Assembly (NCBI GenBank): GCA_035063765.1
Contig: JAPSFT010000008.1
Location: 124,001-188,000, forward strand
DNA length: 64,000 nucleotides
Direction of reading: 5' to 3'
From: Deltaproteobacteria bacterium
Lineage (GTDB): Bacteria; Myxococcota_A; UBA9160; PR03
Shown here: piece after piece, positions 13,447 to 16,870 of the stretch
Layout of the letters: each line of letters opens with the position of its first letter
Numbering within the stretch: position 1 is the first letter of the stretch
Made by a program: the position numbers and the translations under genes
The notes under the pieces: generated by a model
Seen by the model: only the letters and a program-made list of their open reading frames with translations
What the model was told of the DNA's origin: nothing
Databases searched by the model: none

Positions 13447-13474
13447 TTGCCGGGCGGAGGGGAACCCGTATGAT
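13447..13474 (+). promoter_or_regulatory. Sigma70-like promoter of the histone-like gene
   Basis: TTGCCG (13447-13452), 16 bp, TATGAT (13469-13474). It is the best sigma70 match in the 296-bp gap between the divergent amidase and the small basic gene at 13584, and predicts a 5' leader of roughly 100 nt. The rest of the gap holds nothing I can assign. Confidence 0.55.
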
Positions 13475-13583
13475 GCGCTCGCCGCCGCCCGCTCGGGGGC
13501 TCGGCGGGAATCGAGGCCAAGAAGCCAGGACCGGAATCCAGGCCTGGCAACGGGCGCGCATGGCGCGCCATCTGGGGGGAACG

Positions 13584-13796
13584 ATGGCAGCGAGGAAGAA
13601 GGCGGCGAAGAAGGCCGCCAAGGGCTCGGGCGAGCTGATCATCTCGAAGTCGCGCGTGAAGGCCGCCACCCGGAAGTGCAACGTGGGCGGTGACTTCTAC
13701 GGTGCGCTCGACGCGGCCGTGCGCCAGCAGATCGCGCAGGCCGAGGCCCGCGCGCTCGCCAACAAGCGCAAGACGCTCAAGCCGCAGGACCTCTAG
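13584..13796 (+). CDS. Small Lys-tailed histone-fold DNA-binding protein
   Basis: Protein of 70 aa. A Lys/Ala N-terminal tail (about 1-16, ARKKAAKKAAKGSGE) precedes a single-histone-fold-like core: strand/helix IISKSRVKAATRKCN (about 19-33), long helix FYGALDAAVRQQIAQAEARA (about 38-57), and the loop NKRKTLKPQDL at the end. The RKT-x(4)-D loop is the hallmark of archaeal histones and of Bdellovibrio Bd0055-type bacterial histones. The chain ends where helix 3 would begin, as in short bacterial forms. ATG 13584 follows GGGGGGA; an in-frame ATG at 13560 is the alternative. A strong hairpin follows the stop. Likely role: nucleoid binding, inferred from the fold. Confidence 0.75.
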   Translation: MAARKKAAKKAAKGSGELIISKSRVKAATRKCNVGGDFYGALDAAVRQQIAQAEARALANKRKTLKPQDL

Positions 13797-13815
13797 CCCG
13801 GGATCCCGCTCGACG

Positions 13816-13849
13816 AAGGGGGCTCGCAGCGCTGGCTGCGAGCCCCCTT
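13816..13849. terminator. Bidirectional hairpin between histone-like and HerA-like genes
   Basis: Perfect 14-bp stem (13816-13829 with 13836-13849), 6-nt loop, AA at the outer left and TT at the outer right. It lies 20 bp after the histone-like stop and 3 bp from the HerA-like stop, so it can serve both convergent genes. The tail is short for a classical intrinsic terminator. Confidence 0.75.
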
Positions 13850-13851
13850 GC

Positions 13852-16302
13852 TCATTCCCCGGTCCAGACCAGCACGAGCGGCCGCGCGTCGATGTCCGCC
13901 TTGCGGGGCGCGACGAGCTGCTCCTCGAGCGGCAGCGTCGCCGCGTCGGGCGTCGCCGCCAGCCGCTCGCGCTCGGCCTCGAGCTCGCGCTCGAGCGCGG
14001 CGAGCTGCTCGCGCAGGTCCTCGATGCGCTCCCCGGCGCGTGCCACGTCGCCGCGCTCGTCGGCGGCACGCCCCACGCCGCGCGCGGCCGTCGTCACCCG
14101 GCCCACGTTCCGGGCGCTGCCGAGCTTGCGTCCGAAGAGCGCGCCGACGACGCTCGCGCCGATCGAGATCGCCGCCTGCACCTTGTGCTGCGTGTACTGC
14201 TCCTGCTCGCGCGCATGACGCTGCTCGGCGTCGGCGATCCGATCGCGCAGCCGGGCGAGCCGCGGTGCGTGGCGAGCGCGCAGCGCTTCGAGGGCGGCGT
14301 CGCGCGCCTCGCGCTGGGCCTCGCGCAGGCGCACCCGGAACGCGCCCTCGCTCTCGCCCGGCTCCGAGACGAGCTTCGGGTCGGCGCAGCGCAGGAGCCG
14401 CAGCGGGCGCGCGCGGTGGAGCCGGGCTGCGAGCTGCTTGCGCCAGCGCTCGTAGCTGGCGGCCCGCCCCGCCGCCGCCGGGAGCGGCGCGAAGCGCGCG
14501 CCGGCGGGCGGCTCCGCGGCGAGCGCGGGCGCAGCGGCGGGCAGCTCGTGGGCGCCGTCCCAGGGCGCGGCCTCGCTCCCGGCGTCGAGCGGCGCGAGCC
14601 AGGCCACGTCCTGCCAGAGGTCGAGATTCGCCTTCCGGTCGGTGAAGTGCAGCGACGCCACCCCGAGCAGCGCCGGCCGCAGGAGTGCGCCGGCGGGAGC
14701 GGCGAGGAAGCCCTCCGCGACGCCCGCGGGCGCGGGCGGCGGGCGCCCTCCCGAGGCCTCGACGGGCGCGGTACCCGCCGCCGGCGCAGGGCCCACGGCC
14801 GGCGGGGTCGCAGCGGGCGGAGGGCTCGCCGCCGGCGCGCCCGCAGCCGGCGCGCCCGCAGCGGGCGGGCTCGCGGGCGCGGCGCCGGCCGCCGGCTGCG
14901 CGAGCTGCCGGATCTGCTCGCGCGTCAGCGGGCCCGCCAGGTACGAGAGCGCCCAGCGCGTCTGGAACAGCACCGGCTCGTCCTCGTGGGCGTTGCTCAT
15001 CAGGAACACGCGCTTCGGGAGGTTCGAGAGCAGCGCGTCCACCCGCGCGTGGTCGAAGCGCGCGCCCGAGGCGGCGGAGGCGCCCTCCAGCCCCTCGAGC
15101 ACGCGCGCCTTGTCGCGCTCGGTCTGGAGCCGGCCCAGGAACCAGGTGCCGGCGTTCGCCAGGCCCTTGTAGTCGAGGTCGACCGGATTCTGCGTCGCCA
15201 GGACGACCCCGAGACCGAAGGCGCGCGCCTGCTTGAGCAGGGTCAGCATCGGCTCCTTCGCCGGCGGGTTCGCGACCGGCGGGAAGAAGCCGAACACCTC
15301 GTCCATGTAGAGGAGCGCGCGCAGGGAGCTGCTGCCGCGCTGCGCGCGCATCCAGGCCACCACCTCCGTGAGCAGCAGGGTCACCGCGAACATGCGCTCG
15401 GCGTCCGAGAGGTGCGCGATCGACACGATCGAGAGCCGGGGGCGGCCGTCGCCGGTGTGGAGCAGGCGCGCGACGTCGAGCGGGTCGCCCTCGGTCCAGG
15501 CGGTGAAGGCCGGCGAGGCGGCCAGGTTGTTGAGCGCGAGCGCGAGCCGGGTGCGCTCGGCGGCGGGGAAGAAGGTCTCGAGGTCGAGGGCGCCCACGCG
15601 CTCGAGCGGCGGGCGCTGCACCTCGCGGATCAGGCCGGGCAGGTCGAGGGCGCGCCCTTCCCGCCAGGCGCGCTCGAGCAGGCTCGAGAGCAGCACGTGC
15701 TCGCGGCTGCGCAGCGGGTCGGCGTCGACGCCGGCCAGCCCGAGCACGCCCGTCACCGCGCCGAGGATCTTCTCGCGCAGCGCGTCCGGGTCGGCGGCGA
15801 GGGCGGCCGGGGGCGGCGCGAACGAGCGCAGCGCCGCGAGCGGGCGGCCCGCGGTGCTGCCGGGGGTGTAGAGCACGCGCTCGGCGGCGGCTGCGAAGCG
15901 GGCGATCCGCGCCGGCTCCTGGCCCCACTCCGCGAGCCCCTCGCGCCAGCGCTGCGCGAGGGCCGCCGCGTGCTCCGCGGGCGCGCGGCCCTCGCGGGCC
16001 GCCTCGGCCGGGTCGATCCACGGCCCGAAGTCCTCCGGCGCGAGCCGGGGGAAGGCGAGCAGGAGGTTGCCGAGGTCGCCCTTCGGATCGACCGCGAGCA
16101 CCGGGATGCCGTCGATCACGGCCTCCTCGATCAGATCGACGGCGAGCCCGGTCTTGCCCGAGCCGGTCATGCCCACGATCACGGCATGGGTGACGAGGTC
16201 CCGGGCGTCGTAGAGCAGCGGCTCGTCGGCGACCGCGCGGCCCGCCTCGGGGTCGAAGCGGCGGCCGAGGTAGAAGGCGCCGAGCCGTTCGAAGTCCTGC
16301 AC
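13852..16302 (-). CDS. HerA/FtsK-type P-loop ATPase with C-terminal coiled coil
   Basis: ATPase of 816 aa of the helicase-HerA-like (DUF853/DUF87) type. Walker A GMTGSGKT is at about residues 44-51, preceded by LVTHAVIV; VLAVDPKGDLGNLL follows as in this family. Walker B is LLYMDEVFGFFPP, then the sensor-like VVLATQNPVDLDYKGL. After about residue 480 comes a Pro/Ala-rich linker of about 60 residues. A C-terminal region has long charged coiled coils around a glycine-rich hydrophobic patch (AAISIGASVVGALFGRK). GTG 16302 has GAGGGG 6 nt upstream; TTG 16332 is an alternative without one. No NurA nuclease is adjacent, so DNA-end processing is not implied. Confidence 0.85.
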   Translation of the reverse strand: MQDFERLGAFYLGRRFDPEAGRAVADEPLLYDARDLVTHAVIVGMTGSGKTGLAVDLIEEAVIDGIPVLAVDPKGDLGNLLLAFPRLAPEDFGPWIDPAEAAREGRAPAEHAAALAQRWREGLAEWGQEPARIARFAAAAERVLYTPGSTAGRPLAALRSFAPPPAALAADPDALREKILGAVTGVLGLAGVDADPLRSREHVLLSSLLERAWREGRALDLPGLIREVQRPPLERVGALDLETFFPAAERTRLALALNNLAASPAFTAWTEGDPLDVARLLHTGDGRPRLSIVSIAHLSDAERMFAVTLLLTEVVAWMRAQRGSSSLRALLYMDEVFGFFPPVANPPAKEPMLTLLKQARAFGLGVVLATQNPVDLDYKGLANAGTWFLGRLQTERDKARVLEGLEGASAASGARFDHARVDALLSNLPKRVFLMSNAHEDEPVLFQTRWALSYLAGPLTREQIRQLAQPAAGAAPASPPAAGAPAAGAPAASPPPAATPPAVGPAPAAGTAPVEASGGRPPPAPAGVAEGFLAAPAGALLRPALLGVASLHFTDRKANLDLWQDVAWLAPLDAGSEAAPWDGAHELPAAAPALAAEPPAGARFAPLPAAAGRAASYERWRKQLAARLHRARPLRLLRCADPKLVSEPGESEGAFRVRLREAQREARDAALEALRARHAPRLARLRDRIADAEQRHAREQEQYTQHKVQAAISIGASVVGALFGRKLGSARNVGRVTTAARGVGRAADERGDVARAGERIEDLREQLAALERELEAERERLAATPDAATLPLEEQLVAPRKADIDARPLVLVWTGE

Positions 16303-16392: not shown

Positions 16393-16815
16393 CTACTCGG
16401 CCGGCTTGTCCTGCATCGCCTCGCCCGCCGCGTCCATCGCCTCGCCGGTCTTCTCGACGGCGGCGCCCGCGGCGTCCTTGGTGGCCTCGGCGGCACCCGC
16501 GACCGCGTCGCCGGTCGCCTGGGCCGCGTCGCCCGCGCCCTCGGCCGCGTCGGAGGCGGCGTCCTGCGCGCCCTGGGTCGCCTGGTCGGCCGCCTGCTTC
16601 GCCGATTCGACGGCCTTCTGCGCGGCGTCCCGCGTGCTCTCGGCGGCCTGCCGGGCCGCCTCGGTCGCGGCGTCGGCAGCCTCCTTCATCTTGTCGGCCG
16701 CTTCCTGCGCGGCACGCTCGGTGTCGCTCTGGCCGCCGCACGCGACGGGCCCTCCGAGAACGACGGCTCCGAGACCGAGGGCCAGGACCGCCGTGGTGAT
16801 GGCAACACGCTTCAT
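16393..16815 (-). CDS. Ala-rich LEA-like helical lipoprotein
   Basis: Protein of 140 aa. An N-terminal signal (about 1-26) ends at PVACGGQS, so a lipid-modified Cys is plausible although the lipobox is not canonical. The mature part is almost entirely Ala/Asp/Glu/Lys with an 11-like heptad rhythm (AAQKAVESAKQAADQATQGA), predicted as one long amphipathic helix like LEA or apolipoprotein-type repeats. ATG 16815 has AGGAGG 8 nt upstream, which decides against the GTG at 16824. It lies between MscL and the HerA-like gene. Function unknown; envelope or desiccation protection is only an analogy. Confidence 0.7.
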   Translation of the reverse strand: MKRVAITTAVLALGLGAVVLGGPVACGGQSDTERAAQEAADKMKEAADAATEAARQAAESTRDAAQKAVESAKQAADQATQGAQDAASDAAEGAGDAAQATGDAVAGAAEATKDAAGAAVEKTGEAMDAAGEAMQDKPAE

Positions 16816-16870
16816 TTCCCTCACCTCCTCCTCGTCGGAACCGCCGGCTCCGCGAGTCGTTCTCCGCCAC

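Follow-up and report, generated by a model that had tools for sequence, protein, structure and literature searches.

The 70-residue protein P0001, encoded in the window (the whole stretch of 64,000 nucleotides analysed here), is most likely a face-to-face (FtF) alpha3 histone, which by analogy with characterised histones would form tetramers via R56, N60 and R62, wrap about 60 bp of DNA and gain additional grip on it through basic tails; we give this reading a probability of roughly 0.8. P0001 (translation of the open reading frame at 13584–13796: MAARKKAAKKAAKGSGELIISKSRVKAATRKCNVGGDFYGALDAAVRQQIAQAEARALANKRKTLKPQDL) belongs to a known family, and the bulk of the interest lies in the occurrence of two kinds of histone in one bacterial class. 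The features of the locus are as follows:

13447–13474, + strand: sigma70-type promoter TTGCCG-16-TATGAT (one found, shuffle mean 0.0)
13574–13579, + strand: Shine-Dalgarno-like GGGGGG ahead of the P0001 ATG
13584–13796, + strand: gene of the tailed histone P0001, assigned to the FtF group (70 aa plus stop)
13584–13631, + strand: basic N-terminal tail, residues 1–16, MAARKKAAKKAAKGSG (low pLDDT in the AF2 model)
13647–13676, + strand: predicted alpha1 helix, residues 22–31 (AF2 model)
13695–13760, + strand: predicted alpha2 helix, residues 38–59, 22 residues (AF2 model)
13749–13790, + strand: FtF signature R56, N60, R62, T64, D69 (from conservation; meaning of the residues from PMC11390915 and PMC12701072)
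13816–13849, no strand assigned: 15-bp hairpin between convergent genes (from fold energy; U-tract weak)

Fold and group assignment of P0001

The first-pass annotation had read a single histone fold with an RKT-x(4)-D motif and a nearly absent helix 3 from this stretch. Translation confirmed the coordinates of the reading frame and its length of 70 residues, the motif is present (R62, K63, T64 and D69), and the AF2 monomer model (mean pLDDT 76, with 82–94 in the second half of the chain) reduces alpha3 to a single turn (residues 67–69); model and fold search both return a histone and no unrelated family. Searches of Pfam, NCBIfam and PHROGs yielded no family for the 70-residue protein, and a match to PF02895 was dismissed as noise (E 0.17).

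The kinship proposed earlier, namely with the Bd0055 (HBb) type, would make P0001 a “bacterial dimer” with an added tail, bending or coating DNA as a dimer. Sequence comparison instead places it among the FtF histones and outside the Bd0055 group, since it carries both the R and the N of the tetramer contact and matches FtF structures with much higher scores. In fact, R56, N60, R62, T64 and D69 correspond to R48, N52, R54, T56 and D61, the signature of the FtF profile given in PMC11390915, and they are invariant in an alignment of 41 sequences (A1) and kept in 101–102 of 102 copies. Bacterial dimer histones, as characterised in the same source, lack R48 and N52, and in the profile alignment the R and N of FtF histones are replaced by S and D in HBb. 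Consistently, the family profile scored 49.7 bits against HTkC (E 3.4e-12) and 41.9 bits against HLp (E 8.8e-10), both FtF histones according to the descriptions in PMC11390915 and PMC12701072, but only 21.6 bits against HBb/Bd0055 (E 0.002), i.e., 20–28 bits less, and a phmmer search with P0001 against solved chains matched only HTkC (9F2C) and HLp (9QT0). In Foldseek searches with the model, HTkC and HLp ranked at the top (TMt 0.81–0.85), followed by HBb (0.71–0.78); at best 7.8e-3, the E-values were modest, which is no surprise for a fold this short. The truncated alpha3 (3–4 residues) and the short alpha2 of the model likewise agree with the FtF group, as do the signature residues and the identity of the nearest relatives; the long alpha2 and the alpha3 of about 10 residues of HMf-type histones are missing, as is a match to PF00808.

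Some features are nevertheless common to P0001 and Bd0055-type histones: the alpha3-truncated fold, the RKT motif and, within alpha1, an S-K motif, and HBb was also matched in the profile and fold searches. A further counterpoint is K63, as the equivalent lysine is described in PMC11390915 as not strongly conserved in the FtF profile but conserved in bacterial dimers and nucleosomal histones. Given the lower HBb score and the invariance of the R/N pair in the P0001 family alignment, we consider a Bd0055-type dimer unlikely and assign P0001 to the FtF histones.

Distribution, proposed function and gene context

The tail-plus-core protein is kept in 56 of the 61 nearest genomes, and the family occurs in 83 of the 91 genomes that represent the class (42 of 43 among the good genomes), in single copy. 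A scan of named genomes gave further relatives in Latescibacterota, Eisenbacteria, Krumholzibacteriia, Methylomirabilota, one acidobacterial assembly and many Planctomycetota, as well as more distant ones in Thorarchaeota and Aenigmatarchaeota. The tree of the 54-residue core is poorly resolved, with the archaeal copies outside the bacterial ones, and gives no direction of transfer; in viral contigs, no relatives of P0001 or of the second histone P0003 (see below) were found. FtF histones in Myxococcota are reported in PMC11390915, and a literature search combining UBA9160 and histone returned nothing.

Several relatives depart from the usual architecture. One of them, G027 (L100 3006–3431, – strand), carries two identical FtF histone units in one open frame with a nearly uncharged tail, which could be a natural histone doublet or a duplication of the assembly, and at L050 2478–2890 the frame extends about 80 residues past the fold, a C-terminal extension absent in other relatives. 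Moreover, in several genomes of another family of the same phylum (f29), open frames of about 157–159 residues match histone profiles weakly; these are perhaps histones fused to another domain.

The 16-residue Lys/Ala tail is as the first-pass annotation described it, and it raises the net charge from +6 for the core to +12 for P0001. Across the order, 53 members have 11–22 residues ahead of the fold, and the median number of K/R among these is 7; the charge of this segment is conserved across relatives while its sequence drifts. Most archaeal relatives are tailless. The tail and the occurrence outside Bdellovibrio had been regarded as notable, yet both are already described for bacterial FtF histones in PMC11390915, which describes tails in these proteins as frequent and for the most part positively charged; having one is thus normal for the FtF group and no oddity. 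Many Planctomycetota relatives (L032, L033, L036, L040, L041, L049, L051, L054) carry K/A/T/P-rich N-terminal tails of 40–52 residues, much longer than those in the lineage of the window.

Taken as an FtF histone, P0001 most likely acts as a chromosomal architectural protein whose N-terminal tail is disordered and positively charged. Two chains would pair via the histone handshake, and two dimers would meet at both ends via the L2 loop and the end of alpha2 next to it, on its C-terminal side (R56, N60, R62), closing a ring-shaped tetramer around which about 60 bp of DNA would wrap with little sequence preference. The analogy is with HLp of Leptospira, a tetrameric histone that wraps DNA of about this length (60 bp; PMC12701072). 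Tetramer formation and wrapping by P0001 are thus proposed from its relatives, and the contact of the tails with DNA from their charge: with 6–7 extra positive charges per chain and four chains per tetramer, they probably hold wrapped or neighbouring DNA. The near-universal tailed FtF histone of this lineage offers a chance to test what a basic tail does for a bacterial histone. The genome also encodes two HU-family proteins, with which P0001 would share the nucleoid, and this weighs against assuming a main role in compaction.

The presence of HU leaves room for a special role, e.g., of an FtF-like histone diverted to bridging or locus-specific regulation, with the tail touching a second DNA duplex, and DNA bridging by HLp is left open in PMC12701072. 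The near-universal single copy and the conserved strong-type promoter of its own rather suit a housekeeping protein, and no fixed neighbour gene points to a local function, so that this option appears slightly less probable still than the Bd0055-type dimer, and the architectural FtF histone remains our preferred reading.

The sigma70-like promoter noted in the first-pass annotation was recovered, and promoters of this type (at least 9 of 12 matches) lie upstream of 39 of 54 relatives compared with 0.4 in shuffles. The strong terminator claimed alongside it holds in part: the region downstream of the gene (13797–13860) folds into a very stable structure (–40.5 kcal/mol, z –5.3), but the U-tract of the hairpin is weak and the consensus terminator scan did not call it. 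The hairpin is probably a two-way terminator for P0001 and the convergent gene, and P0001 is presumably highly expressed and abundant. The gene stands alone between a divergent amidase gene on one side and a convergent HerA-like ATPase gene on the other; a stable operon or module was rejected, as the amidase neighbour is patchy and the HerA-like gene recurs only within the family. Farther along the window, a lipoprotein-like open reading frame of 143 residues (16393–16824, – strand) features Ala/Lys/Glu-rich, heptad-like repeats and is without a Pfam match.

The P0001 reading frame is a real gene and no chance frame, because the tail-plus-core protein is conserved in relatives and a Shine-Dalgarno-like match precedes the tail ATG in nearly all copies among order-level relatives. 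Although this GC-rich DNA holds many spurious open reading frames, including a longer one in the frame of P0001 itself, an artefact of base composition or of a wrong start codon is highly improbable in view of this site and of the K/R content maintained while the tail sequence drifts.

A second, full-length histone in the same genome

Searching the same genome with PF00808 revealed a second histone, located outside the window:

G000:C18:32332–32553 (L070 1492–1716): second histone P0003, 74 aa

P0003 lies above the cut-offs of both PF00125 and PF00808, and its model (mean pLDDT 91) comprises a full-length alpha2 (residues 24–51) and alpha3 (59–70), matching HMfA, HPhA and the Asgard histone HHoB with TMt 0.90–0.91. 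Judged by this predicted structure, P0003 would be a nucleosomal-fold (HMf-like) histone, with nucleosome formation as a candidate property. An alignment of 25 family sequences shows K10, R11, R21, R54, K55, T56 and D61 to be invariant, and none of the 25 has an equivalent of His49 of the dimer-dimer interface, the position being occupied by Ala, Ser or others. His49, a residue used for stacking, is linked to stable tetramers in PMC10627809, which also describes some archaeal histones that lack it and form no stable tetramers.

Of the 91 genomes of the class, 51 encode a member of the P0003 family; one family of the class (f5) has none among its 30 members, and no copy turned up in the genomes sampled from the rest of the phylum. 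A larC-like gene adjoins it in 36 of 40 loci, and contamination as its source was rejected because of this fixed neighbour and the spread across the class. Searches for P0003-type proteins gave only weak partial matches in 29 FtF-bearing genomes of other bacteria and a clear match in two of four archaeal genomes.

According to two published papers, bacteria lack nucleosomal-type histones. As modelled, P0003 would contradict this confinement to archaea and eukaryotes; the supplementary lists of the surveys may already contain it, e.g., as “undefined”. P0003 would allow asking whether bacteria can build archaeal-style chromatin. We give even odds to a picture in which a whole Myxococcota class builds its chromatin, atop HU, from two kinds of histone: one of the FtF type and tailed, the other full-length and of the archaeal-style nucleosomal fold, a type so far reported only outside bacteria.

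Comparison with known histones

The archaeal nucleosomal histones (HMfA, HPhA and Asgard HHoB) share with P0003 the full alpha2 and alpha3, the RKT and D motif and an RVS loop with an arginine next to T56, whereas P0003 is bacterial, has no equivalent of His49 and carries one additional residue ahead of the RVS loop.

For bacteria, PMC12701072 counts only two histones characterised in structure and function, the dimeric HBb and the tetrameric HLp. HBb/Bd0055 of Bdellovibrio bacteriovorus (PDB 8CMP, 8FVX, 9EZZ, 9F0E) resembles P0001 in its short alpha2, one-turn alpha3, RKT motif and RD clamp, but differs at R48 and N52 (S and D, respectively), in its lower score and in lacking a basic tail of the P0001 kind; it binds DNA as a dimer (PMC11317129, PMC10627809). 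The best match of P0001 in both sequence and fold, the FtF histone HTkC of Thermococcus kodakarensis (PDB 9F2C), is archaeal and tailless, with Glu where the P0001 family has Asn (N60). The bacterial FtF histone HLp of Leptospira perolatii (PDB 9QT0–9QT2) has in common with P0001 the alpha3-truncated fold, the R/N/R tetramer residues and the RD clamp, and both are stand-alone, basic proteins (PMC12701072). The two are only about 30% identical, the tail of P0001 is longer and lysine-rich, and the host of HLp lacks HU, whereas the P0001 genome encodes two HU-family proteins.
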